Below, one piece after another: positions 27,073 through 64,000 of a DNA stretch of 64,000 nucleotides. The notes under the pieces are model-generated. The model searched no databases and was not told the DNA's origin. It was given only the letters and a program-made list of their open reading frames with translations. Both the position numbers and the translations under genes were made by a program. The stretch covers positions 310,001-374,000 of the forward strand of contig NZ_QOHG01000001.1 of the NCBI RefSeq assembly GCF_003319125.1, written 5' to 3'. The stretch's first letter is position 1, and each line of letters opens with the position of its first letter. The DNA is from Blastococcus sp. TF02A-26 (GTDB lineage: Bacteria > Actinomycetota > Actinomycetes > Mycobacteriales > Geodermatophilaceae).

Positions 27073-27831
27073 ATGACGCGGAGCACGTCCGACGGCGGTC
27101 TCACCCTGCCGCGGTACCTGGTCGAGGACCCCTCGCAGCGCACCCCGCTCGCCTTTCCCGACTACCGCAGCACCGCGCTCCGGGCGCCGCTGCGCGAGCC
27201 GGTCGACCTGCCGCACCGGCTCACCGAGGTGACCGGACCCGTGCTCGGCGAGGACCGGGTGCTGCCGCACGACGCCGACCTGACGTGGCGCAACGGCGGC
27301 GAGGCGGTCGGCCAGCGGGTCCTCGTGCACGGGCGGGTGCTGGACAGCGACGGCCGTGCGGTGCCGCACGCGCTCGTCGAGGTCTGGCAGGCCAACGCCG
27401 CCGGCCGCTACCGCCACGTCGTCGACCAGTGGCCGGCGCCGCTGGACCCGCACTTCGACGGGCTCGGCCGGGTGGTCACCGACGACCTCGGCCGCTACGA
27501 GTTCCTGACGATCAAGCCCGGCGCCTATCCGTGGGGCAACCACCACAACGCCTGGCGGCCGGCGCACATCCACTTCTCGCTGTTCGGCCGGGCGTTCACC
27601 CAGCGCCTGGTCACCCAGATGTACTTCCCGGACGACCCGCTGTTCGGGCAGGACCCGATCTACAACGCCATCCCGCCGGCCGCCCGGCACCGCGCGGTCA
27701 GCCGGTTCTCCCTCGAGCGGACCCAGGACAACTGGGCGCTGGCCTACGAGTGGGACATCGTCCTGCGCGGCGTCGACCAGACCCCGTTCGAGGCCCTGTC
27801 CGAGGGCGCAGACGACGGGGACGTGGCGTGA
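27073..27831 (+). CDS. pcaH: Protocatechuate 3,4-dioxygenase beta subunit
   Basis: 252 residues. All four ferric-iron ligands of the family are visible: Tyr in AAGRYRH, Tyr in GAYPWGNHHN, and the two His in WRPAHIHFSLFG. The N-terminal extension typical of beta subunits is present. With PcaG it cleaves protocatechuate between the hydroxyls to 3-carboxy-cis,cis-muconate. ATG 27073; overlaps pcaG by GTGA. First gene of pcaHGBDC. Confidence 0.95.
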   Translation: MTRSTSDGGLTLPRYLVEDPSQRTPLAFPDYRSTALRAPLREPVDLPHRLTEVTGPVLGEDRVLPHDADLTWRNGGEAVGQRVLVHGRVLDSDGRAVPHALVEVWQANAAGRYRHVVDQWPAPLDPHFDGLGRVVTDDLGRYEFLTIKPGAYPWGNHHNAWRPAHIHFSLFGRAFTQRLVTQMYFPDDPLFGQDPIYNAIPPAARHRAVSRFSLERTQDNWALAYEWDIVLRGVDQTPFEALSEGADDGDVA

Positions 27832-28484
27832 GCGCCCCGGTGGACCCGCTGGACGTGCCGGCCGACCCGCCGGGCCCCTTCCAGCCGCGGTCCGGGCAGC
27901 GCGGCAGCGGGTTCCTGACCGGGCCGCTGCGGCGGGGCACGACTCCCAGCGCCACCGTCGGGCCGTACCTCGCGATCGGGCTGACGTGGGCCGACGGCGA
28001 GTGGGCCGCCGCGGAGGGCACCGAGGGCGGGTTCTGGATCCGCGGCCGGGTGCTCGACGGCAACGGCGACGTCGTCCCCGACGCGATGGTCGAGACCTGG
28101 CAGGCCGACCCCGACGGCCGGTTCCCCTCGCCGGAGGACCCGCGGGGCGCGGCGGCGTACCCGGGGTTCCGTGGATACGCCCGGTCGCAGACGCTCACGG
28201 GCGAGTTCGCCGTCTTCACGCTCAAGCCGGGCCGGGTGCCCGACGGCGAGGGCGGGCTGCAGGCGCCGCACGTCGACGTCTCGGTCTTCGCCCGCGGGCT
28301 GCTCGACCGGGTGGTCACCCGGATCTACTTCGCCGACGAGGAGTCGGCCAACGCGGAGGACGCGGTGCTCCGGACGGTCCCCGGCGACCGGCGTCCGACG
28401 TTGCTGGCGACGCCCGCCCCGGACGGCTACCGCTTCGACGTCCGGCTCCAGGGGGAGTCCGAGACCGTCTTCTTCGCGGTCTGA
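27828..28484 (+). CDS. pcaG: Protocatechuate 3,4-dioxygenase alpha subunit
   Basis: 218 residues. Intradiol dioxygenase fold like PcaH but lacking the iron-binding His pair (the matching segment reads QAPHVDVSVFARG), as expected for the alpha subunit, which shapes the active site. WIRGRVLDGNGDVVPDAMVE and FAVFTLKPGRVP are family blocks. GTG 27828 overlaps the pcaH stop. pcaB follows after 34 bases. Confidence 0.94.
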   Translation: MSAPVDPLDVPADPPGPFQPRSGQRGSGFLTGPLRRGTTPSATVGPYLAIGLTWADGEWAAAEGTEGGFWIRGRVLDGNGDVVPDAMVETWQADPDGRFPSPEDPRGAAAYPGFRGYARSQTLTGEFAVFTLKPGRVPDGEGGLQAPHVDVSVFARGLLDRVVTRIYFADEESANAEDAVLRTVPGDRRPTLLATPAPDGYRFDVRLQGESETVFFAV

Positions 28485-28518
28485 GCGTGGTCCGGACGGT
28501 GCTGGTAGGCAGAGCGGC

Positions 28519-29847
28519 GTGACAGGTCTCCTCGACGGCACCTTCGCGCGCGGTGCTGCCGCGGCGGCGGTCTCCGGCGACGCGTGGTTCCGGTCCCTGC
28601 TGGCGGTGGAGGCGGCGCTCGCCCGGGCCGCCGCGAGCGCGGGTCTCGTGCCGACCACGGCCGCCGACGCCGTCACCGCCGCGTGCGCCGACCCGGGCCG
28701 GCTGGACCTCGCGACCGTCGTCGCCCGCGCGGCCGACGCCGGGAACCCCGTGCCGCCGCTGGTCCGCGCGCTGACCGAGGCGGTGGGGGAGCGCGACGCG
28801 GTGGCCGTGCACGTCGGGGCGACCAGCCAGGACGTCGTCGACACCGCGCTGGTCCTGATGAGCCGCGACGCGATCGGGGCGATCGACGCCGACCTCGCCG
28901 CCGCCGCGGCGTCGGCGGCGGAGTTGGCCCGGGCCCACCGCGACGACGTCGTCGTGGGCCGCACCCTCCTGCAGCAGGGGCTGCCGACGACCTTCGGGCT
29001 CAAGGCCGCCGGCTGGCTCGCGGCGCTGGACGGGGCGCGGCTGCGGCTGGCCGAGGCGGTGGCCGGGCTGCCGGTCCAGTACGGCGGCGCGGTCGGGACG
29101 CTGGCCGCCAGCGGCGGTGCCGGGGTGCAGGTGCGCGCGGCGCTGGCCGAGGAGCTCGGGCTGGCGACGACGGCGGTGCCCTGGCACACGGTGCGGCTGC
29201 CGGTCGCCGACCTCGCGGGGGCCCTCGGCACGGCGGCCGGCTCGGTGGCCACGGTCGCCGTCGACGTCGTCCTCCTGGCGCAGTCCGAGGTCGCCGAGGT
29301 GGCCGAGGTCAGCGCGTCGCGAGGCGGCTCGTCGGCCATGCCGCACAAGAACAACCCCGTCGCGGCGATCTCCGCCCGGGCCTGTGCACGCCGCGCGCCC
29401 GGTCTGGTGGCCACGCTGTTCGCGGCCATGGAGCAGGAGCACGAGCGGGCCGCGGGCGCGTGGCACAGCGAGTGGCCGGCGCTGACGGACCTGCTGGTGA
29501 CCGTGGGGTCGGCGGCGTCCTGGCTCGCCGAGTCGCTGGCCTCCCTGCGGGTGTCGGCCGACCGGATGGGCGCCACCGCGGAGGCCGCCGCCGAGGGCCC
29601 GCTCGCCTCAGCCCTGGCCGAGGCGCTCGCGCCCACCCTGGGCCGGGCCGCCGCGCACGACGCCGCCGCCGAGGCGACCCGCACCGCCCGCGCCTCCGGA
29701 CGCTCCCTGGCCTCGGTGGTGCGGGAGCGCACCGACGTCGACGCCGCCGCGGTGCTCGCCGCCGCGGCCCCGGACGTCGGCGAGGCGGGTGTCCAGGTGG
29801 ACGCCGCACTGGCCGAGCACACCGCTCTCACCGAAGGAGAGGCATGA
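28519..29847 (+). CDS. pcaB: 3-carboxy-cis,cis-muconate cycloisomerase
   Basis: 442 residues, fumarase/aspartase superfamily. The signature GGSSAMPHKNNPVAA lies at about residue 270; VHVGATSQDVVDTALVLM and LQQGLPTTFGLKAAGWL fit PcaB. It converts 3-carboxymuconate to 4-carboxymuconolactone. Start GTG 28519 has only a weak upstream site. The stop overlaps the pcaD ATG (ATGA). Chains of this family vary in length at the C-terminus; here it ends shortly after the helical bundle. Confidence 0.93.
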   Translation: MTGLLDGTFARGAAAAAVSGDAWFRSLLAVEAALARAAASAGLVPTTAADAVTAACADPGRLDLATVVARAADAGNPVPPLVRALTEAVGERDAVAVHVGATSQDVVDTALVLMSRDAIGAIDADLAAAAASAAELARAHRDDVVVGRTLLQQGLPTTFGLKAAGWLAALDGARLRLAEAVAGLPVQYGGAVGTLAASGGAGVQVRAALAEELGLATTAVPWHTVRLPVADLAGALGTAAGSVATVAVDVVLLAQSEVAEVAEVSASRGGSSAMPHKNNPVAAISARACARRAPGLVATLFAAMEQEHERAAGAWHSEWPALTDLLVTVGSAASWLAESLASLRVSADRMGATAEAAAEGPLASALAEALAPTLGRAAAHDAAAEATRTARASGRSLASVVRERTDVDAAAVLAAAAPDVGEAGVQVDAALAEHTALTEGEA

Positions 29848-30617
29848 CCGCCGTCGAGGTCGCGTACACCGAGGACGGGCCGGCCGACGCGCCGGTCGTC
29901 GTCCTGTCCAACTCGCTCGGGGCCACCCGGGGGATGTGGGACCCGCAGGTGCCGGCGCTGGCCGAGCGCTACCGGGTGGTCACCTACGACACGCGTGGTC
30001 ACGGCGACTCGCCCACGCCGGCCGGTCCGTGGACCCTCGACGACCTGGTGGACGACGTCGTGGCGCTGCTCGACCGGCTCGGTGCACCGCGGGCGCACGT
30101 CGCCGGGATCTCCCTCGGCGGCATGACCGCGATGCGGCTGGCCGCCCGGGCGCCGGCGCGGGTCGACCGGATCGCCGTCCTGTGCAGCTCGGCGAAGGCG
30201 GACCCGCAGGGCTTCCGCGACCGTGCGGCCGCTGCCCGGTCCGGTGGGACGGCGCCGCTGGCGGCCCCGGTCGTGAGCCGCTGGCTGACCCCGGAGTACG
30301 CGGCGTCGCACCCGTCGCTGGTCGCGCGCCTGGAGGCGATGATCGCCTCGTCGGACGACGAGGGGTACGCCGCCTGCTGCGAGGTCGTCGCCGACATGGA
30401 CCTGCGGGAGGACCTCGGGCGGATCACGGCGCCGACGCTGGTCGTCTCCGGCGCCGAGGACCCCTCGCTGCCGCCCGAGCACCAGCAGGTCATCGCCTCC
30501 GGGATCGTGGGATCGGAGTTCCTGTCGCTGAGCCCGGCCGCGCACCTGGCCAACCTGGAGCGGACGCTCGAGGTGACCGGCGCGCTCCTGGCGCACTTCG
30601 ACGGCGCCGGGCGATGA
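29844..30617 (+). CDS. pcaD: 3-oxoadipate enol-lactonase
   Basis: 257 residues, alpha/beta hydrolase. Nucleophile elbow GISLGG (Ser at about residue 92), acid in SGAEDPSLPP, and His in SPAAHLANLE complete the triad. VVLSNSLGATRGMWDPQ is characteristic of PcaD. It opens the enol-lactone to 3-oxoadipate. AAGGAGAGG precedes ATG 29844. Separate from PcaC here (not the fused PcaL of some actinobacteria). Confidence 0.93.
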   Translation: MTAVEVAYTEDGPADAPVVVLSNSLGATRGMWDPQVPALAERYRVVTYDTRGHGDSPTPAGPWTLDDLVDDVVALLDRLGAPRAHVAGISLGGMTAMRLAARAPARVDRIAVLCSSAKADPQGFRDRAAAARSGGTAPLAAPVVSRWLTPEYAASHPSLVARLEAMIASSDDEGYAACCEVVADMDLREDLGRITAPTLVVSGAEDPSLPPEHQQVIASGIVGSEFLSLSPAAHLANLERTLEVTGALLAHFDGAGR

Positions 30618-31018
30618 CCGGACCGGACCTGTCCGACGAGGAGCGCCGGACGGCAGGCATGCGGACCCGGCGGGAGGTGCTGGGAGACGCCCACGTCGAC
30701 CGCGCCGTCGCCGGCACGACGCCGTTCACCGCGGACTTCCAGGACTTCATCACCCGCGTGGCGTGGGGGGACGTCTGGCAGCGGCCGGGGCTGACCCGGC
30801 GCGAGCGCAGCATCGCCACGCTGTCGATCACCGTCGCGCTGCGGCACTGGGACGAGTTCGCCCTGCACGTCCGTGCCGCGGTGAACAACGGCCTGACCGA
30901 CGAGGACATCGCCGAGGTGCTGCAGCACGCCGCGGTCTACGCCGGGGTGCCGGCCGCCAACCACGCGTACAAGGTGGCCGGGCCGATCCTGGCCGAGCTG
31001 CGCGCCACCACCGACTGA
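30614..31018 (+). CDS. pcaC: 4-carboxymuconolactone decarboxylase
   Basis: 134 residues, CMD/AhpD-like fold: RREVLGDAHVDRAVAGTTPF, then GLTRRERSIATLSITVALRH and NNGLTDEDIAEVLQHAAVYA. It decarboxylates 4-carboxymuconolactone to the enol-lactone used by PcaD. ATG 30614 overlaps the pcaD stop. The aldehyde dehydrogenase gene starts 9 bases later. Confidence 0.94.
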   Translation: MTGPDLSDEERRTAGMRTRREVLGDAHVDRAVAGTTPFTADFQDFITRVAWGDVWQRPGLTRRERSIATLSITVALRHWDEFALHVRAAVNNGLTDEDIAEVLQHAAVYAGVPAANHAYKVAGPILAELRATTD

Positions 31019-53858: not shown

Positions 53859-54188
53859 TCAGGCGCCGGCGACCAGCTCGGTGTCGACGCCGACCTTGCC
53901 CACCTTGGAGGCGCCGCCCGGGCTGCCCAGCGGCGCGTCCCGGCCGGGCAGCGGCTCGACGAAGAAGCGCCGGTTGTCGGCGATGTGCGGCTCGTTCTCC
54001 TCGGTCACCCGGCGGTCCTGGGAGATCGCCTCGACCGGGCACACCGGCTCGCAGGCGCCGCAGTCGATGCACTCCTTGGGGTTGATGTAGAGCTTGCGGT
54101 CGCCCTCGTAGATGCAGTCGACCGGGCACTCGTCCACGCAGGACATGTCGGTCGTGTCGATGCACTCGCTGCCGATGACGTAGGGCAC
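53859..54188 (-). CDS. 7Fe ferredoxin (FdxA-like) of the box cluster
   Basis: 109 residues. Cysteines at 9, 17, 21 and 25 ([19 protein letters not shown]) and 40, 43, 46 and 50 ([13 protein letters not shown]) match the FdxA pattern with one [3Fe-4S] and one [4Fe-4S] cluster. [18 protein letters not shown] is the family loop. It ends the minus-strand boxC-boxB-ligase run and is probably the electron carrier for the BoxB epoxidase, because no boxA reductase is present. GTG 54188. Confidence 0.9.
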
Positions 54189-54224: not shown

Positions 54225-55883
54225 TCAGGCGGGGCTGCCGGGCACGGCCGCCGTCAGGTCGGCCTGGGTGAGGTCGGCACGGGCGCTGCCGAGCCGTTCG
54301 ATCGCGAGCTCGCGCACGCGGAACCTCTGCAGCTTGCCGGTGGCCGTCTGCGGCAGCTCGTCGAAGACCAGGATGTTGCGGGGCCGCTTGAACGCCGCGA
54401 GGCCGTCGCGGCAGAACGCGACGAGGCCGGCGTCGGTCACGGTCGCGCCGTCGGCCAGCACGACGCAGGCGACCGGTTTGTCGAGCCCGGTCTCGTCCGG
54501 CACCGAGACGACGACGACCTGGTTGACCTCCGGGTGCGCCCGCAGCCGCTCCTCGACCTCGGTGGGGGACACCCAGATCCCGCCGGCCTTGATGATGTCG
54601 TCGGTGCGGCCGAGCGAGGAGTAGTACCCGTCGGCGCTGCGCACGTAGGTGTCGCCGGTGCGCACCCACTCGCCCTGGAACACCCGGCGGGTGACGTCCA
54701 TCCGCGACCAGTAGCCGGTGGCCGCCGACGTGCCCTTCACCCAGAGGTTGCCCGGGGTGCCGTCGGGCACCGGGTTGCCCTCGTCGTCGACGATCTTCGC
54801 CTCGTACCCGGCGACGATCTCGCCGGTCGACCCGGCGCGGGTCCGGCCGGGGCGGCCGCTGATGAAGATGTGCAGCATCTCCGTCGAGCCGATGCCGTCG
54901 AGCATCTCCACCGAGAACGTCGAGGTGAACCGCTCGAACAGCGGGGCGGGGAACGCCTCGCCGGCCGAGACGCAGGCCCGCACCGAGGCGAAGGCGTCGG
55001 CCGGGAGCCCGGCGCCGACCAGCGCGGCGTAGAAGGTCGGGCCGGCGAAGAACAGGGTGGGGCGGTGCTCCTGCAGCACGCGCAGGGTGCCCGCGGGGCT
55101 GGGCCGTGAGCGGTCCAGCACGGTCGCGGCCCCGACCGAGAACGGGAAGGTCATCGTGTTGCCCAGGCCGTAGGCGAAGAAGAACTTCGCGACCGAGAAC
55201 GTGACGTCGTCCGGGCCGATGGCCAGCACGTCGCGCGCGTAGGTGACCGCGGTGTCGCGCAGCGAGCCGTGCCGGTGCATGGCGCCCTTGGGCGTGCCGG
55301 TCGTGCCGGAGGTGTAGAGCCAGAACGCGGGGGAGTCGGCGACGGTCGGGTAGGGCTGCGCCACCCCGTCCAGGGCGTCGGCGCCCTCGGCGACGAAGGC
55401 CTCCCAGCTCCGCACCCGGGTGCCGGGGACCGTCGGCAGCTCGACCGTGCCGTCCGCGGCGGTGCCCATGACCACGACGTCGGCGAGGTCGCGCTGCCCG
55501 GCCAGGCCCTGGGCGAGCCCGGCGAACTCCGCGCTGAGCACCACGAGCCGGGCGCGGCTGTCGGTCGCCATCCCGGCGATGTCCTTGGGCTTGAGCATGG
55601 TGCTCACCGGGACGGGGACGGCGCCGATGCGCAGGCCGGCGAGGAACGCGGTGAGCAGCTCCGGGGTGTCGCCCATGCACAGCAGCAGCCGCTCCTCCGG
55701 CCGCACGCCCGAGGCGACCAGCCCGGCGGCGCAGCGGGTCACGGCGTCGTCGAGCTCGGCGTAGCTCAGGGTGCGGGTGCTGCCGTCGAGGTCGATCGCG
55801 ACCACGGCGCGGCGGTCGGGGGTGGCGCGGGCGTGCCGGGTGACCAGCCACTCGGCGGCGTTGAACAGCTCGGGACCGGACAC
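54225..55883 (-). CDS. Benzoate-CoA ligase
   Basis: 552 residues, adenylate-forming ligase. P-loop FWLYTSGTTGTPKGAMHRHG (about 165-185), then AKFFFAYGLGNTMTFPFSVG typical of benzoate-CoA ligases (BadA/BclA/BzdA), GIGSTEMLHIFISGRPGRTR, GEWVRTGDTYVRSADGYYSS and the C-terminal TATGKLQRF Lys. It activates benzoate to benzoyl-CoA with ATP. It lies between boxB and the ferredoxin, as expected for the Box pathway. GTG 55883 follows AGAGAGGA. Confidence 0.92.
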   Translation of the reverse strand: MSGPELFNAAEWLVTRHARATPDRRAVVAIDLDGSTRTLSYAELDDAVTRCAAGLVASGVRPEERLLLCMGDTPELLTAFLAGLRIGAVPVPVSTMLKPKDIAGMATDSRARLVVLSAEFAGLAQGLAGQRDLADVVVMGTAADGTVELPTVPGTRVRSWEAFVAEGADALDGVAQPYPTVADSPAFWLYTSGTTGTPKGAMHRHGSLRDTAVTYARDVLAIGPDDVTFSVAKFFFAYGLGNTMTFPFSVGAATVLDRSRPSPAGTLRVLQEHRPTLFFAGPTFYAALVGAGLPADAFASVRACVSAGEAFPAPLFERFTSTFSVEMLDGIGSTEMLHIFISGRPGRTRAGSTGEIVAGYEAKIVDDEGNPVPDGTPGNLWVKGTSAATGYWSRMDVTRRVFQGEWVRTGDTYVRSADGYYSSLGRTDDIIKAGGIWVSPTEVEERLRAHPEVNQVVVVSVPDETGLDKPVACVVLADGATVTDAGLVAFCRDGLAAFKRPRNILVFDELPQTATGKLQRFRVRELAIERLGSARADLTQADLTAAVPGSPA

Positions 55884-55969
55884 GGCGCACGTCCTCTCTG
55901 ACTCGCGGCGGCCCCCGCGCAGGGGCCCGCCGCGAGCCTGCGAGCGGTGGGGGGCAGGGGGTCCTTCGA

Positions 55970-57451
<1,482 letters not shown>

Positions 57452-57454
57452 GGG

Positions 57455-59182
57455 TCAGACCCGCTTCCTGTCGTAGTCGGCCCGCTTGCCGGTGCCGTAG
57501 CGGCGGAGGGCTCCTTCGGGGCCAGCGGCGTTGGGCCGCTGGAAGATCCAGTTCTGCCAGGCGGTGAGCCGCCCGAAGACCTTGGTCTCCGGCGTCTCCC
57601 GGCCGGCGAAGCGGAGGTTGGCCTCCATGCCGGTCAGGGCGTCGGGGGAGAAGCTGGCGCGCTCCTCGATGGCCAGGCGGACCTCGTCGTCCCAGTCGAT
57701 GTCGTCCGGCGTCGCGGTGACCAGGCCGAGCGCGTCGGCGTCGGCCGCGAGCAGGTCCCGGCCGACGGCGGCCTCGGCGGCGGCCAGCTCGTCGGCGCTG
57801 CCGAGGAACCGGACCTGGAGTCGGGTCATGTCGTTGCTCATGGGGAGCAGGCCGGTGTTGAAGGCGTTCAGCCGGAGGACGGCGGCCGGCTTCGGTTCGT
57901 CGTCGTCCTCGAACTGGCCGTCGAGCATGTACTGCCGGTCGGCGGAGAAGGCGATCTCGGCCAGCGCGCCCACGAAGCAGCTGCCCGGCTCGATCAGCGC
58001 GAAGAGGCTGCGGGACGTGGTGTCCAGCCGCTTCACGGTCCGCTTGTAGAAGCCGATCATCTCGTTGACCAGCCAGTGCTCGCGCTCGGCGAGCAGGAAC
58101 TCGTCGTAGGCCGCGGCGGTCGCGGGGTCGCCCTCGGTGCGCAGCAGCCAGGTGCCGATCGACTGCTCGTTGCTGCGCAGGTGCAGGACGGCGTCGTCCA
58201 GCTGGCGGGTCATCGCGAGGAACCACGCCCGGTCGCCCTGGCCCTGCAGCTCCTCGACCGACGCGGGGACGGCGGAGGGGCCGAGCACCGTGATGGTCGC
58301 GGTGCCCGAGTCGCGGTCGAGGACGACGCGCACGTGCTCGTAGCGGAAGCCATCGCTGTCGGTCTCGCGCTGCAGCGGGGTGAGCGCGACACCCTGGGCG
58401 CCGGCGCCGGGGCGGGAGGACCCGGCGGCCAGCTCGGCGGCGCGACGCTGCACCTCCGCGTCGAAGTCGCGCGCCTTGGCCACCGCGTCGACCAGCCGCC
58501 ACTGCACCGCGCGCTCGCCGCGGACGCCCTCGGCGGTGGTGGAGAAGATGTCGGCCAGGTCGCGCCGGACGCCGCGCTTGTCGACCACGCGGGTCAGGCC
58601 GCCGGTCCCGGGCAGCACTCCCAGCAACGGCACCTCGGGGAGGGAGACCGCCGAGGAGTTGTCGTCGATCAGCACGATCTGCTCGCAGGCCAGCGCCAGC
58701 TCGTAGCCGCCGCCGGCCGCGGTGCCGTTGACCGCGGCGACGAAGGGGAGCCCGGAGTTGCGGGTCGCGTCCTCGATGCCGTTGCGGGTCTCGTTGGTGA
58801 ACTTGCAGAAGTTCACCTTCCAGCTGTGCGGCGAGGCGGCGAGCATCTTGATGTTGGCGCCGGCGCAGAACATGCGCTCCTTGGCGCTGGTGACGACGAC
58901 CGCCTTGACCTCGGGGTGCTCGAAGCGCAGCCGCTGGACCGCGTCGTGCAGCTCGATGTCGACGCCGAGGTCGTAGCTGTTCATCTTGAGCTCGTAGCCG
59001 GGGACGAGCCCGCCGTTCTCGTCGACGTCCAGCGTCAGCGTGGCGATCTCGCCGTCGACCGACAGCCGCCAGTGCCGGTACTGCTCCGGCGAGGTCGTGA
59101 ACGACACCTCGACGGTCGCGCCCGGTTCGGCGACCGGTGCCGGGCCCTCCGTGGTCGCCTGACGGTCTTCCAGCGTGGTCAC
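57455..59182 (-). CDS. boxC: 2,3-epoxybenzoyl-CoA dihydrolase BoxC
   Basis: 575 residues, a crotonase-fold protein with a long C-terminal extension. YRHWRLSVDGEIATLTLDVD and CAGANIKMLAASPHSWKVNF, then CKFTNETRNGIEDATRNSGL and AAVNGTAAGGGYELALACEQ lie in the first third; FVGALAEIAFSADRQYMLDG and WDDEVRLAIEERASFSPDAL in the last. It opens the epoxide ring with two waters, releasing formate. GTG 59182 follows GGGAGG. First gene of the box operon. Confidence 0.95.
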   Translation of the reverse strand: MTTLEDRQATTEGPAPVAEPGATVEVSFTTSPEQYRHWRLSVDGEIATLTLDVDENGGLVPGYELKMNSYDLGVDIELHDAVQRLRFEHPEVKAVVVTSAKERMFCAGANIKMLAASPHSWKVNFCKFTNETRNGIEDATRNSGLPFVAAVNGTAAGGGYELALACEQIVLIDDNSSAVSLPEVPLLGVLPGTGGLTRVVDKRGVRRDLADIFSTTAEGVRGERAVQWRLVDAVAKARDFDAEVQRRAAELAAGSSRPGAGAQGVALTPLQRETDSDGFRYEHVRVVLDRDSGTATITVLGPSAVPASVEELQGQGDRAWFLAMTRQLDDAVLHLRSNEQSIGTWLLRTEGDPATAAAYDEFLLAEREHWLVNEMIGFYKRTVKRLDTTSRSLFALIEPGSCFVGALAEIAFSADRQYMLDGQFEDDDEPKPAAVLRLNAFNTGLLPMSNDMTRLQVRFLGSADELAAAEAAVGRDLLAADADALGLVTATPDDIDWDDEVRLAIEERASFSPDALTGMEANLRFAGRETPETKVFGRLTAWQNWIFQRPNAAGPEGALRRYGTGKRADYDRKRV

Positions 59183-59239: not shown

Positions 59240-59268
59240 ATCGTGACGTGCTACAGCAGCGTGTGCAA
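59240..59268 (-). promoter_or_regulatory. Putative box operon promoter
   Basis: On the minus strand TTGCAC (59268-59263) and CACGAT (59245-59240) are 17 bases apart. Transcription would start near 59233, about 50 bases before the boxC GTG. The palindrome TGTAG-7-CTACA (59282-59298) lies just upstream of the -35, where an activator could bind. Confidence 0.45.
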
Positions 59269-59281
59269 GTGGCGGCGGTTC

Positions 59282-59298
59282 TGTAGATGTGCGCTACA
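59282..59298 (-). promoter_or_regulatory. Operator-like palindrome upstream of the box promoter
   Basis: TGTAG (59282-59286) and CTACA (59294-59298) are perfect inverted arms around ATGTGCG. A further half-site (GTAGC read on minus) recurs near 59251-59256, within the spacer of the putative promoter. No regulator gene lies adjacent. Confidence 0.45.
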
Positions 59299-59502: not shown

Positions 59503-60936
59503 TCAGAACAGGTGCAGGTACTCCCGCTGCTCCCAGTCGGTGACCGCGGCCTCGAAGCGCGCCACCTCCGCGCGCTTGACCCCCGCGTAGTGGTCGACCA
59601 GGGCGGGTCCGAGCAGCGCGCGCAGCTCGGTGTCGCCGTCCAGGGCGCGGACCGCCTCGGTCAGGCTGGTGGGCAGCCGCGGCGCCTCGGTGGCGTAGGG
59701 CTGGTCGGCCGACGGGCCGGGGTCCAGCCCGCGGTCGACGCCGTCGAGCCCGGCGACGAGCTGCGCGGCCATCGCGAGGTAGGGGTTGGCGGCCGGCTCC
59801 CCGGCACGGTTCTCCACGTGCAGGTCGCCGCGCTCGGCGCTGCCGACCACCCGGAGCATCGCCGCGCGGTTGTCGTGCGCCCAGAGCACCCGGTCGGGGG
59901 CCATGGAGAAGGGCTGGAACCGCTTGTAGCCGTTGACCGTCGGCACGGCGAACACGCAGCCCGCCCGGGCGTGCCGCAGCAGGCCGGCCAGGTAGCCGCG
60001 GCCAACCTCGGACAGGCCGTCGTCGCCCACGAACGCGTTCCCGCCGTCGGGGTGCTCCAGCGACTGGTGCAGGTGCCAGCCGCTGGAGCAGGCCTCGGGC
60101 AGCTGCGGCCGGCACATGAAGGTGGCCAGCAGCCCGGCGCGGCGGGCCACCGACCGGACGGCGCTGCGCAGCAGCACGACGGCGTCGGCGCCGGCGAGCC
60201 CGCGCAGCGGAGCGGTGGTGACCTCCACCTGGCCGGGGCCGAACTCGACCTCCACGGTCCGCAGCGGGATGCCGAGGGCGCGCAGGGTCCGGGCGAGCTC
60301 GGCGAGGAACGGCTCGAGTGCGTCGGCGCGGTCCTCGCTGAGCAGCTGGTAGCCGCGGTCCACCGGCGAGACGGCCCGGGCGCGACCGGGGGCGCCGGGG
60401 CGGTTGATCTCCGCCGGGTCCAGCGGGCCGTCCTCGACGTGCAGCAGGTGGAACTCCAGCTCGAGGCCGGTGACCAGCTCCAGGTCCCGCTCGGCGGCCC
60501 GGGCCAGCGCCGCCCGGAGCGTGCCCCGGGGGTCGAACGGCACCGGGGCGCCGTCGGTGAGGCGCAGGTCCGACAGCAGCCAGCCGGTGCCCGGGGCCCA
60601 GGGGAGGACGCGGAACGTGGTCGGGTCGGGGACCATCACGACGTCCCCGGCGCCGCCCATGCCGGCCACGCCGACACCGCCGTCGGGGGCGAAGGCGCCG
60701 TAGACGGTGCGGCCCGAGGTGTCCTTGGACAGCAGGGTGCTGACGATCGGCAGCCCGCCGGCGAGGATGCCGGGCAGCTGGTCGGCCATCACCGTCTTGC
60801 CGCGCACCAGGCCGTGCAGGTCGACGACGCCGACGCGGACCGCCTCGATGCCCTCGACGTCGACCCGTTCGCGGAGCTGCCGCGCGGCCTCGCGCTGCCC
60901 GTCGTCCCAGCCGCCGTGCTCCTCGACGAAGCTCAT
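59503..60936 (-). CDS. Glutamine-synthetase-like ligase
   Basis: 477 residues, glutamine synthetase fold. VGVVDLHGLVRGKTVMADQL is the N-domain beta-grasp; ELEFHLLHVEDG and VEVEFGPGQVEVTTAP carry metal-binding Glu residues; CSSGWHLHQSLEHPDGGNAF contains the ATP-site His; AENRAG-like VENRAGEPAANPYLAMAAQL is the Arg-flap region. The sequence departs from GlnA and fits the PuuA/IpuC/AtdA1-type group that gamma-glutamylates amines. ATG 60936 overlaps the Rieske oxygenase stop, implying joint production. This recalls aniline pathways, where a GS-like enzyme makes a gamma-glutamylanilide for a Rieske dioxygenase. The substrate is not known. Confidence 0.82.
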   Translation of the reverse strand: MSFVEEHGGWDDGQREAARQLRERVDVEGIEAVRVGVVDLHGLVRGKTVMADQLPGILAGGLPIVSTLLSKDTSGRTVYGAFAPDGGVGVAGMGGAGDVVMVPDPTTFRVLPWAPGTGWLLSDLRLTDGAPVPFDPRGTLRAALARAAERDLELVTGLELEFHLLHVEDGPLDPAEINRPGAPGRARAVSPVDRGYQLLSEDRADALEPFLAELARTLRALGIPLRTVEVEFGPGQVEVTTAPLRGLAGADAVVLLRSAVRSVARRAGLLATFMCRPQLPEACSSGWHLHQSLEHPDGGNAFVGDDGLSEVGRGYLAGLLRHARAGCVFAVPTVNGYKRFQPFSMAPDRVLWAHDNRAAMLRVVGSAERGDLHVENRAGEPAANPYLAMAAQLVAGLDGVDRGLDPGPSADQPYATEAPRLPTSLTEAVRALDGDTELRALLGPALVDHYAGVKRAEVARFEAAVTDWEQREYLHLF

Positions 60937-62345
60937 GGCTTCCGGGGAGCGAACACCGCCGGGTCCTCCGGCTCGACCTCGTCGGCGCGCACGCCGGCGG
61001 GGCCGGTCGCCAGCGCGGAGGTCCACGGGCCGGCCCACGGGCTGTCGGCGCGCAGCCGGGCGACCGCCTCGGCCCAGAACCGCTCCCAGGCGCCGGTGGG
61101 CCCGATGCCGTCGAGCGGGATCGGGCCGCGGCTCTCCACCTCGGCCTTGTCGTGCAGCAGGGTCTGCGGATCGCCGCCGGCCTCGACGGTGTCGATGGCC
61201 GACATGAGCATCCGTCGGTAGGTGATGATCGCCTTGTCGGAGCGGCTGAGCTTCTCCCGCGTGCGGTCGTGGATCGGCCCCTGGCCCTCGACGGCCATCT
61301 GGTCGTGAACGTTGATGTCGGTGCCCAGCCCGGTGTAGGTCGTCGTCCGCTGCTCCTCCGGGTCGAACAGGTAGTTGTTCGCCCGGTTCCGCACCGGCCG
61401 GTAGTCCGGCAGCGTGATGCCGTCGAGCCGCTGGGCGCGCATGGTCGCCTTGTCCACCGGGGCGTCGAGGCTGGTGAACATCGCGTACCAGTAGCAGGAG
61501 ACGTCGTCGACCGGCACGTGCCACTGGGTGATCGCCATGGTCGAGGACAGCGGGATGGTGATCCCGTGGGGGAAGACCTGGTGGGTGATCCGCACGTGGG
61601 TGCGGCTGCCGTCCTCCCCGCCCTTGTCCAGGGTGCGCAGGGCGACGATGCGCTGGCCGTAGTCGGTGCGGGCGTTGAGGATCTCCGGCCGGCCGTACTC
61701 GCGCAGGATCCGGGTCATCGGCAGGTCGGTGCCCAGGCTCGAGGAGCGGAACTGCCTGCCGTAGCTGTCGGCCGGGTCCTCGTCCTCGGCGAACCGGTGC
61801 AGGTAGGAGGCGTGCGCCGGGTCGATGCCGACCTCCAGCGCCTGCAGCCAGTTGCAGTCGAGGAAGCCCTTGAACGCGAACGTGTACTCGTCCGGGGCGG
61901 CGAAGCAGTCCAGTGCCGGGAGCTCGGGCGGCTCACCGGGGCCGAGGTAGCCCCAGACGATGCCGTTGCGCTCCTGCACCGGGTAGTGGGTGAAGCGGAC
62001 CTTCGAGGCGAGCGTGCTGTCCTCGGGCTCGGCGGGGGTCTCCAGGCACCGCCCGTCGGCGGCCAGCAGCCAGCCGTGGAAGTAGCAGCGCAGCCCGCCG
62101 TCCTCCCGCCGCCCCAGGGCGAGGTCGGCGCCGCGGTGCGGACAGCGCCGGTCGATCAGCCCGAGGCCGCCGTCGTCGTCCCGGAAGAGGACGAGGTCCT
62201 CGCCGAGCACCCGCACCGGGACCGCCGGCCGGTCGGTCTCGAGCTCCTCGGTGAGCGCCACCGGCTGCCAGTAGCGCCGCATGAACGCCCCGCCCGGGGT
62301 GCCGGGGCCGGTGCGGGTGATCCGGACGTTGTCCTCCGCGCGCAC
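60933..62345 (-). CDS. Rieske non-heme iron oxygenase, alpha subunit
   Basis: 470 residues. Rieske [2Fe-2S] ligands: DRRCPHRGADLALG and CYFHGWLLAADG (CxH and CxxH). Catalytic iron motif LEVGIDPAHASYLHR (D-x2-H-x4-H). It resembles the alpha-only phthalate 4,5-dioxygenase/3-ketosteroid-hydroxylase type rather than the alpha-beta type, so it needs a separate reductase, which is not adjacent. It starts at GTG 62345, 2 bases after livF. Coupled downstream to the glutamine-synthetase-like gene. Substrate unknown. Confidence 0.88.
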   Translation of the reverse strand: MRAEDNVRITRTGPGTPGGAFMRRYWQPVALTEELETDRPAVPVRVLGEDLVLFRDDDGGLGLIDRRCPHRGADLALGRREDGGLRCYFHGWLLAADGRCLETPAEPEDSTLASKVRFTHYPVQERNGIVWGYLGPGEPPELPALDCFAAPDEYTFAFKGFLDCNWLQALEVGIDPAHASYLHRFAEDEDPADSYGRQFRSSSLGTDLPMTRILREYGRPEILNARTDYGQRIVALRTLDKGGEDGSRTHVRITHQVFPHGITIPLSSTMAITQWHVPVDDVSCYWYAMFTSLDAPVDKATMRAQRLDGITLPDYRPVRNRANNYLFDPEEQRTTTYTGLGTDINVHDQMAVEGQGPIHDRTREKLSRSDKAIITYRRMLMSAIDTVEAGGDPQTLLHDKAEVESRGPIPLDGIGPTGAWERFWAEAVARLRADSPWAGPWTSALATGPAGVRADEVEPEDPAVFAPRKP

Positions 62346-62347
62346 GG

Positions 62348-63049
62348 TCAGGCCACGCCGAGCAGCGCGTGCGCCACCGAGGAGTCCCTGCGGAACTCCT
62401 CGGTGGGGGAGCGGTGCACGATCCGGCCCTTGTCCATCACGGCGATCTCGTCGGCGACGGCGAAGGCCAGGTGCAGGTCCTGCTCGACGACGAGCAGGGT
62501 CACGCCCTCGGCCTTCATCCGGCCGATCGCCACTCCGATCAGGTCGACGACGGAGGGGGCGAGGCCGTCCGACGGCTCGTCCATGAGCACCAGCCGGGGG
62601 TTGGTGAGCAGCGCCCGCGCGATGGCCAGCATCTGCTGCTCCCCGCCGGAGAGCTGGCCGGCGGTGTGCCGGCGCCGCTCGCCGAGCCGGGGCAGGAGCT
62701 CCAGCACCCGGTCCATGTCCCACGGTCCCTTCCCCCTGCCCCGGCGCGCGGCCAGGTCGAGGTGCTCGGTGACGGTGAGCGGCGCCCAGGTGCGCCGGCC
62801 CTGCGGCACGAGCGCCACGCCGGCGCGGGCGATGACGTCGGGACGGCGGCCGGTCAGGTCGCGGCCGTCGACGTTCACCCGGCCGGCCGACGGGGTCACC
62901 AGACCCATGAGCGTGTTGATCAGCGTCGACTTGCCGACGCCGTTGCGGCCCAGCAGGCCGAGCACCCGGCCGTCGAGCAGGTCGAGGTCGACCCCCTGCA
63001 GGACGGTGCTGCGCTTGTAGCCGGACTCCAGTGCGCGGACCTCGAGCAC
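62348..63049 (-). CDS. livF: Branched-chain-type ABC transporter ATPase LivF
   Basis: 233 residues. Walker A GLLGRNGVGKSTLINTL, signature LSGGEQQMLAIARALL, Walker B LVLMDEPSDGLAPSVV, and switch His replaced in VVEQDLHLA (the HAAT group carries Q here). With LivG it powers uptake through LivHM. Genes of this group in aromatic clusters often take up aromatic acids or amides instead of amino acids. GTG 63049 abuts the livG stop. Confidence 0.93.
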   Translation of the reverse strand: MLEVRALESGYKRSTVLQGVDLDLLDGRVLGLLGRNGVGKSTLINTLMGLVTPSAGRVNVDGRDLTGRRPDVIARAGVALVPQGRRTWAPLTVTEHLDLAARRGRGKGPWDMDRVLELLPRLGERRRHTAGQLSGGEQQMLAIARALLTNPRLVLMDEPSDGLAPSVVDLIGVAIGRMKAEGVTLLVVEQDLHLAFAVADEIAVMDKGRIVHRSPTEEFRRDSSVAHALLGVA

Positions 63050-63859
63050 TCAGCCCACCTCCATCCCGGGTCGGGAGACGTCGAGGGACGCCGGGCCGTC
63101 CAGGAACAGCGCCTCCCGGCCGGTGCCCAGGTAGGCCTCCTGCACCGCGGAGCTGGCCCGCACCTCGTCGGGCGTCCCGGTGAGCAGCAGCTTGCCCAGG
63201 TGCAGCACGGTCACCGAGGTGGCGAGCGCGAAGACGACGTCCAGGTCGTGCTCGACGATCACCAGGGTCACGGTGTCCGGCAGCGCCTTGAGCAGCCCGA
63301 CCAGCCGGGCGCTCTCGGCCGGCGACATGCCGGCCGCCGGCTCGTCGAGCAGCAGCAGCCGCGGCTCGCAGGCCAGCGCGACGGCGACCTCGAGCTGCCG
63401 GCGCTCGCCGTGGGAGAGCGCGGAGACCAGCGCGTGCGACCGGCCGGCGAGGCCGACGTCGGTGAGCAGCTCGTGCACGCGGTCCCGGGCGGCCCGCTGG
63501 CGGCGCGGCAGCAGCGAGTGCCGGCTTCCCCCGGGCCGGCGCTGGGCGGCCATCAGCACGTTGCGCTCGACGGTCTGGCTGAGGAACAGGCTGGAGTGCT
63601 GCAGCGTCTGGCTGATCCCGCGGCGGGCCCGCGCGGGCTCCGACAACCGGGTGACGTCGGAGCCGTCGAAGGCCACCGTGCCCGACGACACCGGCATCGA
63701 CCCGGTGACCAGCTTGAACAGCGTGCTCTTGCCGGCGCCGTTGGGCCCGATCAGGGCGTGCCGGGCGCCCACCGGCACCGACAGGTCGACGCCGTCGACG
63801 GCGGTCAGCGCGCCGAAGCTGCGCGTCACGCCGGACAGCTCGAGCAGACCGTCGCTCAT
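63050..63859 (-). CDS. livG: Branched-chain-type ABC transporter ATPase LivG
   Basis: 269 residues. Walker A LIGPNGAGKSTLFKLVTG, signature LSHGERRQLEVAVALA, Walker B LLLLDEPAAGMSPAESARLV and H-loop VIVEHDLDVVFALA. The LSHGE signature is normal for LivG. ATG 63859 overlaps the livM stop (ATGA). Partner of LivF. Confidence 0.93.
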   Translation of the reverse strand: MSDGLLELSGVTRSFGALTAVDGVDLSVPVGARHALIGPNGAGKSTLFKLVTGSMPVSSGTVAFDGSDVTRLSEPARARRGISQTLQHSSLFLSQTVERNVLMAAQRRPGGSRHSLLPRRQRAARDRVHELLTDVGLAGRSHALVSALSHGERRQLEVAVALACEPRLLLLDEPAAGMSPAESARLVGLLKALPDTVTLVIVEHDLDVVFALATSVTVLHLGKLLLTGTPDEVRASSAVQEAYLGTGREALFLDGPASLDVSRPGMEVG

Positions 63860-64000
63860 GCCGCCCGCTCCTCTCCGGGGACGATGGACCGGTCGCGGCG
63901 GCGCCGGGGGGTGCGCAGGAGCCCGGCGATGCCGGCGAACCCGCGCGGGAGCACGTACACGGCGATCACGAAGACGATGCCGAGGACCAGCGGGCCGTGC
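63856..64000 (-). CDS. livM: Branched-chain-type ABC permease LivM, C-terminal end only
   Basis: Only the last 48 codons lie in the window; the gene continues beyond base 64000. The visible tail reads as a final membrane helix (LVLGIVFVIAVYVLPRGFAG) followed by a short basic tail ending EERAA, the usual LivM C-terminus. The stop overlaps the livG ATG. It confirms that a livM-livG-livF unit leads into the Rieske and glutamine-synthetase-like genes. Confidence 0.85.
   Translation of the reverse strand, partial: HGPLVLGIVFVIAVYVLPRGFAGIAGLLRTPRRRRDRSIVPGEERAA

Follow-up and report, generated by a model that had tools for sequence, protein, structure and literature searches.

A putative aminobenzoate glutamylation-oxidation cassette within a benzoate regulon of Blastococcus sp. 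TF02A-26

The window analysed here is a stretch of 64,000 nucleotides from Blastococcus sp. TF02A-26 (NZ_QOHG01000001.1), in which two adjacent minus-strand genes encode a Rieske oxygenase (60933-62345, GTG start at 62345, stop at 60933, 470 aa) and a ligase of the glutamine synthetase (GS)-like type (59503-60936, ATG start at 60936, stop at 59503, 477 aa). All coordinates are window positions, and those above 64 kb refer to the adjoining part of the contig. The pair is located between the genes of a Liv transporter and the box genes for benzoate degradation, and it is best explained, with a probability of roughly 0.6, as an aminobenzoate glutamylation-oxidation cassette that was captured by a benzoate regulon. 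This explanation builds on the gene order, the protein families, the conservation of the cassette, the empty sites in relatives and a shared operator, all of which are established at the level of sequence. The chemistry would be of a known kind in a new setting and likely involves a new substrate class.

A scan with an alignment of the Rieske protein gave 591 confirmed matches, and the best 80 of these, mostly from Bradyrhizobium, were analysed. In 79 of these best 80 loci a GS gene was found 15-356 bases downstream of the Rieske gene and on its strand, and the contig of the remaining one (L068) ends 304 bases past the Rieske match. In the window the two genes overlap by 4 bases. The pairing was also observed on plasmids, where 39 records matched the Rieske protein. 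All 13 with at least 48% identity have a GS homologue within 7 kb (directly adjacent in 10), the GS-linked oxygenases being 48-62% identical to the window protein, and none of the other 26, which have at most 39% identity, was found among the 40 listed of the 41 GS records. The Rieske-GS pair is a conserved module and the adjacency of the two genes is not due to chance.

The GS-like protein, of the GoaS type and similar to SadB, was confirmed with Pfam and NCBIfam domain models as were the other gene families (Gln-synt_C, 285.7 bits). Its best match in the PDB is the gamma-glutamyl-1-naphthylamine synthetase NpaA1 (8wwu) with 376.6 bits, followed by an entry with 192.4. An ordinary GlnA was ruled out, as the NCBIfam models for GlnA, GSIII and gamma-glutamylputrescine synthetase all scored far under their cut-offs and both the PDB ranking and the tree agree. 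In this tree of 47 rows, 41 group together with a support of 99/99, comprising the window protein, the other Rieske-linked GS proteins and the enzymes of the aniline type, which leaves outside the two other GS proteins of the genome (L001 and L002) as well as L010, L134 (identical to L010), L012 and L013. L001, L002 and the L010 group have long branches that were flagged by the program, and therefore only the separation was used from the tree. The preliminary description of the window had named a grouping with ordinary GlnA homologues as a refutation of its reading, and no such grouping was found. Features of the GoaS type that were found in the sequence are this grouping with NpaA1/AtdA1-type enzymes rather than with GlnA, and the amine-binding Glu pair: E232 and E234 of NpaA1 align with Glu229 and Glu231, and both are Glu in 93 of the 93 Rieske-linked rows.

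The aryl pocket of GS is formed between subunits. In NpaA1 a loop lines the amine pocket and F75' is described as stabilizing the aromatic ring (PMC11335346). Our alignments show that this aryl-contact residue, Phe75, corresponds to Lys71 of the window protein. We noticed that Lys is present here in every Rieske-linked GS row (93/93) and in 0 of the 15 other GS rows, two of which are identical, where the residue is Phe (5), Leu (2), Val (6) or a gap (2). Lys71 would suit an acceptor which bears an acidic group, as far as can be judged from rows that are related to one another.

The oxygenase is SadA-like and of the phthalate/isophthalate dioxygenase type, with Rieske and LigXa_C domains. Its top three solved relatives are phthalate dioxygenase (PDO, 7fjl), isophthalate dioxygenase (IPDO, 9ina) and 7fhr. 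No beta-subunit gene was found beside the oxygenase gene in the operon, which upholds the earlier assignment of an alpha-only enzyme. The Rieske ligands C68, H70, C87 and H90 are conserved in 92 of the 94 family rows, while D175, H178, H183 and D348, which we take to form the mononuclear iron region, are conserved in all 94. Residue Arg252 aligns with Arg244 of PDO and Arg234 of IPDO, both described as carboxylate-binding (PMC12445078, PMC10511449), and is also kept in 94/94 rows.

Two plasmids, from Palleronia (L022:4389-5630) and Pseudooceanicola (L023:14840-16069), carry a family oxygenase alpha subunit without the Rieske [2Fe-2S] motif in which the mononuclear iron ligands are kept. In Pseudooceanicola the motif-less alpha gene adjoins one for a separate 132-aa Rieske-domain protein (L023:16115-16513), a flavodoxin-domain protein is encoded nearby, and the arrangement is possibly that of a split Rieske oxygenase.

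The electron supply of the oxygenase can be approached from the neighbours of other copies. Several proteobacterial copies are accompanied by a 2Fe-2S ferredoxin and an FAD reductase, and a match to a sad-type ferredoxin or FAD reductase was found in 13 of the 80 loci, two of these being weak at 27% identity. A PDR/VanB-type reductase gene was observed in seven of the nine actinobacterial loci examined (L026-L029 and L139-L141, partial in L026), and not in L025 and L131. The preliminary description had proposed that livH, livK, a reductase and an amidohydrolase be sought beyond 64 kb; livH and livK are indeed there, together with a divergent PaaX-type gene, and neither a reductase nor an amidohydrolase gene was found in the operon, including this upstream stretch. 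Two PDR-type reductase genes are located on other contigs, C9 and C45 (L118, L119), and share 43-49% identity with the reductases near the actinobacterial copies. Our guess is that a PDR-type reductase supplies the electrons in trans. A ferredoxin and reductase like those of L016 and L017 were rejected in favour of the PDR/VanB type, as they had no match in the window or in the loci of its own genome that were examined, a genome-wide search for them not having been made. A GATase partner was also rejected: four partial PF07722 matches in the genome exceed the Pfam cut-off, the best with 41.7 bits, and none is on the contig of the window.

Clues to the substrate come from the genes near other copies of the pair. 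The family PF16155 represents the 4-hydroxylaminobenzoate lyase PnbB and matches 23 of 72,556 plasmids (E 1e-15). PnbB was found within 12 kb of the pair in six of the 13 plasmids with a Rieske identity of at least 48% (C. insecticola, Caballeronia NK8, P. phymatum, C. necator, C. pinatubonensis and M. nodulans), and a seventh plasmid, from Polaromonas, has PnbB at 41.6% identity and 25 kb from the pair. In Palleronia, pcaG, pcaH, pcaB, pcaC and pcaD are located beside GS, matches to pcaB, pcaC and pcaD are near the pair in L050, and a PcaK-like carrier, under the cut-off of its model, is near the pair in L017. In a member of the same family as the window genome (L131:3709-10135), genes for tryptophan 2,3-dioxygenase (TDO) and kynureninase (KynU) stand shortly before Rieske-GS; these two enzymes together lead to anthranilate. 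Downstream in L131, readings like homogentisate dioxygenase and FAH were observed. With PnbB, pca and TDO-kynureninase genes as neighbours in other lineages, the neighbours taken together favour aminobenzoates without fixing the isomer. In the literature searched, which left most subscription papers outside, we found no assignment of a GS-like and Rieske pair to an aminobenzoate, and we make no claim that none is in print. The mab cluster of Comamonas QT12, which concerns 3-aminobenzoate, was considered as a precedent and dropped, since the main text of PMC9584955 has no word beginning with 'glutam'.

From these residues and neighbours we infer a reaction, a substrate and an electron donor as follows. 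The substrate would be an aromatic amine that carries a carboxyl group, an aminobenzoate being the most likely, and at the expense of ATP the GS-like enzyme would couple its aryl amine to glutamate through the gamma-carboxyl. The alpha-only Rieske oxygenase, reduced by a PDR/VanB-type reductase encoded elsewhere, would then add one oxygen to the amide-bearing carbon and one to the carbon next to it, after which glutamine would leave and a catechol-type acid would remain (protocatechuate from 3- or 4-aminobenzoate). The product may enter the pca branch, for which the pca genes of the window are a possible sink. Matches to pcaH, pcaG, pcaB, pcaD and pcaC, covering protocatechuate ring cleavage and the beta-ketoadipate steps, are found on the plus strand at 27115-31000, these extents being tblastn alignment limits. 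An IclR-like match is present on the opposite strand before them. As ring dioxygenation of a glutamylated aryl amine gives a catechol, protocatechuate or catechol is the likelier product over a substrate of the box pathway. The preliminary description had arrived at a similar glutamylation chemistry, which is plausible, and had suggested a benzoate-type product, for which no evidence was found; a catechol is expected instead, with pca matches at 27.1-31.0 kb. Its interpretation as a whole is partly supported.

The setting of the pair was examined through the order of the surrounding genes. On the minus strand, from upstream to downstream, these are livK, livH, livM, livG, livF, the Rieske gene and the GS-like gene, followed after 320 bases by boxC, boxB, a benzoate-CoA ligase gene and a ferredoxin gene, while a PaaX-family gene (67330-68184) diverges from livK on its upstream side. 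The genes livK (65936-67150, Peripla_BP_6) and livH (64926-65813, BPD_transp_2) lie beyond the window. The 3' end of livM (63856-64929, BPD_transp_2) is within it (63856-64000) and overlaps livG (63050-63859) by 4 bases. In turn, livG abuts livF (62348-63049), both encoding ABC ATPases (ABC_tran), and livF stands 2 bases before the Rieske gene. From livH through GS the genes overlap by at most 4 bases or are 0-2 bases apart, and with the domain assignments these coordinates confirm the tight livM-livG-livF-Rieske-GS order that had been described, placed 320 bases before boxC, a gap which exceeds the others. Both boxC (2,3-epoxybenzoyl-CoA dihydrolase, 57455-59182, start at 59182) and boxB (benzoyl-CoA 2,3-epoxidase subunit, 55970-57451) are above their NCBIfam equivalog cut-offs, the benzoate-CoA ligase family protein (54225-55886) is above a subfamily cut-off, and the 4Fe-4S ferredoxin of the box operon (53859-54188) was identified by domain search. 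The nearest solved relatives of the LivK substrate-binding protein are 4evq, 4ey3 and 4f06, of which the search gave entry names only and which we take to be aromatic-acid binders from Rhodopseudomonas. Just past the window, at about 379.1-387.8 kb of C16 (L194), there are a salicylyl-CoA 5-hydroxylase-like and a dihydroxybenzoate-AMP-ligase-like gene, both under the cut-offs of the models. An Amidohydro_2 protein is encoded in the same stretch, which also contains a second PaaX-like reading and represents another aromatic-acid branch.

Comparison within the family indicates that the liv and box genes were together before the pair joined them. BoxB was found in 28 of 108 family genomes and a close LivK in 25 of 108, while the Rieske protein was found in only three of 112. 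The box regions of 18 relatives were fetched, having been picked from BoxB/LivK matches mostly with both genes on one contig, and Rieske and GS are absent from all 18. In 13 of them the order is livK-H-M-G-F-(gap)-boxC-boxB-ligase, a share that is not a family frequency because of this selection, and 12 of the 13 have a PaaX-type gene within the stretch. The other five are without this liv set in the stretch fetched, the contig of L191 beginning about 2 kb before boxC. The livF-boxC gap of the 13 (L176-L185 and L187-L189) ranges from 106 to about 9,000 bases. Named by sequence reading and not by domain search, its contents are an opposite-strand acetyltransferase-like gene in 12 of the 13, a transporter-like gene also in four, and about 9 kb of further genes in L187. 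As both the length and the content of the gap differ among these regions, we regard the livF-boxC slot as variable; its occupant in the window lineage is Rieske-GS. In Blastococcus endophyticus (L025, a stretch that begins inside livK) the order is livK, IclR, Rieske, GS, boxC and boxB, with 89% identity for Rieske and 86% for GS. An IclR gene also precedes Rieske in L026 and L027. None is present in the window, which fits a step that brought the pair under the liv promoter.

Since livKHMGF-box exists without the pair and shares an operator, it is not possible to regard the liv genes as having arrived together with Rieske-GS; judging from these gene orders they belong by ancestry to the benzoate/box system. 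The Rieske-GS pair seems to be a cassette that entered an older benzoate regulon at the livF-boxC junction. The 'one unit' of the preliminary description is not supported as a statement of origin, as livKHMGF-box is an older regulon which lacks Rieske-GS in the family and its operator is found only twice in the genome. On this comparison the present unit is mosaic in origin.

The shared operator is a CTACA-N25/26-TGTAGCACGTC motif that was found before boxC and before livK, the boxC copy by aligning relatives. Between GS and boxC it has the form CTACA-N26-TGTAG (59251-59286) and is extended by CACGTC at 59245-59286 on the minus strand; the livK operator, also of the extended form, is at 67173-67213 (C16:377173-377213 of the genome). 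Exactly these two sites, before livK and before boxC, match the extended motif in the 4.68-Mb genome, the reversed control gave zero, and the shorter form had no match in 100 shuffles of the window. In the relatives, CTACA-N20-26-TGTAG was observed before livK in 13/13 and before boxC in 18/18 cases, and it also stands before boxC in L025; an additional match was found in each of L181, L185 and L193. By consensus scan no sigma-70-type promoter or terminator was found between GS and boxC. Because the operator stands before both livK and boxC, the liv genes, with Rieske-GS at their end, and the box genes probably form two transcription units of one regulon. The PaaX-type gene is located beside liv-box and also adjoins boxC in regions that lack this liv set (L190, L192 and L193), and by this position its product is a candidate regulator of the operator sites. 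It may represent a candidate PaaX-family box regulator of actinobacteria.

We therefore propose, by inference also as regards co-transcription and the binding of the operator by the PaaX-type protein, that the cassette would have slotted between livF and boxC of an older PaaX / livKHMGF / boxCB-ligase-ferredoxin regulon. Rieske-GS would now be read from the liv promoter, under an operator which also stands before box, and the uptake of benzoate-like acids, the degradation of benzoate and the degradation of aminobenzoate would be switched together.

Within the stretches examined, linkage of the pair to box genes was observed in 33 of the 80 loci, namely L025 and 32 that are titled Bradyrhizobium (31) or Bradyrhizobiaceae (1), and livH/livM occur in 44 of the 80. 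In 27 of the 32 box-linked Bradyrhizobium/Bradyrhizobiaceae loci livH or livM was seen, and in all 27 the pair is located between the box and liv blocks in the opposite orientation, and in 23 of them an IclR gene adjoins it. Constraining five box-linked GS proteins to one clade was rejected (approximately unbiased (AU) test, p 0.00024, the group having been named after the tree was seen), and therefore the Rieske-GS/box linkage probably arose at least twice, as judged from this tree. Such recurrence suggests a functional tie and is not proof of one, since aromatic gene clusters are common. That Bradyrhizobium and the window both have the pair placed between liv and box genes, and that the order in L025 is livK, IclR, Rieske, GS, boxC, boxB, could instead be taken to mean that liv-Rieske-GS-box is one ancient unit which was partly lost in other family members. 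This is very unlikely in view of the same AU result (p 0.00024, with the same reservation about the naming of the group), by which the box-linked GS proteins are not one clade, and of the thirteen family genomes that keep liv and box and have no pair. Furthermore, L026 and L027, the nearest relatives outside the Geodermatophilaceae, have no box match in 10 kb on each side, and the Bradyrhizobium pair is oriented the other way with IclR beside it in 23/27.

Other substrates for the same enzymes have to be weighed against an aminobenzoate in general. The TDO and kynureninase genes shortly before Rieske-GS in L131, in the same family, would fit the same chemistry acting on anthranilate (2-aminobenzoate) made from tryptophan and giving catechol or a hydroxylated acid, and the salicylyl-CoA 5-hydroxylase-like and dihydroxybenzoate-AMP-ligase-like genes nearby, under cut-offs as they are, indicate that ortho-substituted acids may be used. 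Apart from L131, no TDO or KynU match was found in the window, L004, L005 or the searched locus set; PnbB linkage points to para-substituted acids, and there are known anthranilate dioxygenases which act without glutamylation, all of which makes anthranilate an unlikely substrate. An arylalkyl amine such as benzylamine, which comes near to the reading of the preliminary description, would be glutamylated and hydroxylated next to the nitrogen by the Rieske enzyme, releasing an aldehyde that is converted to benzoate for the box pathway. The pair stands beside box in two lineages, an aldehyde-dehydrogenase-like gene was read beside it in L139-L141, and enzymes of the PDO group are reported as shiftable to monooxygenation (PMC10511449). 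We regard this route as distinctly unlikely because the operon has no aldehyde dehydrogenase, the GS groups with aryl-amine enzymes, other loci show pca and PnbB linkage, and the liv-box part exists in the family without the pair, so that box does not depend on it. Still more specific is the proposal that the pair is a 4-aminobenzenesulfonate (sulfanilate) dioxygenase and a direct functional copy of SadAB. N. resinovorum SA1, which degrades sulfanilate, has a relative on pSA3 that is close to a maleylacetate reductase gene and may belong to the sad locus of that strain, and an anion-binding Lys would suit a sulfonate too; sulfanilate is a dye intermediate whose system is argued to have a close analogue as its natural substrate (PMC5632844), and the proposal is highly improbable.

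Several observations weigh against an aminobenzoate cassette itself. No reductase gene is adjacent to the pair in the window. The Lys signature is confounded with ancestry, given the relatedness of the Rieske-linked rows, many of which come from Bradyrhizobium, and NpaA1, the nearest assayed relative compared, has about 39% identity. Arg252 is also present in 3/3 outgroup rows and therefore characterizes the oxygenase group as a whole and does not mark the GS-linked clade. In L139-L141 (about 51% identity) the pair is accompanied by an aldehyde-dehydrogenase-like gene, in keeping with the oxidative cleavage of an alkyl-type amide. In addition, 22 of the 80 loci have none of the tallied neighbour classes (box, liv, ferredoxin/reductase, pca, PnbB and GATase), the genes from which a substrate can be told (PnbB, pca and TDO-KynU) all neighbour the pair in other lineages and none in that of the window, and the window pca genes are about 28 kb from the pair. 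Around the pair in L139-L141, a PDR reductase upstream, gamma-glutamyltransferase-like readings (L140, L141) and phosphotriesterase-like hydrolase readings were also observed, perhaps for another substrate; gene names in these loci are by sequence reading.

A broader form of the aminobenzoate explanation is more tentative, and we would put it somewhat below even odds. It would hold that an aryl-carboxylate-specific glutamyl-amine synthetase, recognized by its KDTS loop Lys, and an alpha-only PDO-type oxygenase form a widespread and so far unassigned aerobic route from aminobenzoate to protocatechuate (or catechol) and glutamine, with a cassette that came to stand between liv and box at least twice and was captured by the benzoate regulon in the window lineage. 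If true, the gene pair and a one-residue marker would point to aminobenzoate catabolism in many soil bacteria; on the plasmids examined the annotation of such pairs goes no further than 'glutamine synthetase family protein' and 'aromatic ring-hydroxylating dioxygenase'. The sulfanilate system would also gain the natural counterpart expected for it (PMC5632844). The comparison of empty and filled sites shows how a central aromatic regulon can capture a peripheral pathway.

The nearest characterised system known to us is SadAB. SadA is presumably alpha-only, and of the SadAB-type features an alpha oxygenase without a beta gene and a directly adjacent GS are present in the window, while ferredoxin and reductase genes in the cluster are not. 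In Hydrogenophaga intermedia PBC, SadABCD is a 4-aminobenzenesulfonate 3,4-dioxygenase system (PMC5632844). As in the window a dioxygenase gene is combined with a GS-like gene, and in the published step a para-substituted aromatic amine is deaminated to give a catechol (PMC5632844), so that the pair has a characterised precedent which the preliminary description had not named. The sad cluster differs in having the ferredoxin gene sadC and sadD, neither of which is beside the window pair. The pSA3 pair of N. resinovorum SA1 falls in the same GS-linked family as the window pair.

The aniline and naphthylamine systems (AtdA1-A5, the TdnQ/DcaQ type and NpaA1-A5) are similar in that gamma-glutamylation by a GS-like enzyme is followed by a Rieske dioxygenase (PMC11335346, PMC4539516), and their GS proteins are about 39-46% identical to that of the window. 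They differ in having alpha and beta subunits and a GATase gene, as annotated in the aniline-type loci L105, L106 and L107, whereas the window has an alpha subunit only, no GATase in the operon and Lys for Phe in the aryl loop. Membership of the aniline dioxygenases (AtdA) was rejected, as no beta or GATase gene is found in the operon. PDO (7fjl/7fhr) and IPDO (9ina) are alpha-only oxygenases of the same group with the same position of the carboxylate-binding Arg, and they act on dicarboxylates without glutamylation. Finally, boxC, boxB and the ligase of the window are typical of box operons, and liv together with box is a regulon of the family. Rieske and GS are not regular members of it, being absent from 18/18 fetched regions, and the window is distinguished by having them in the livF-boxC slot.

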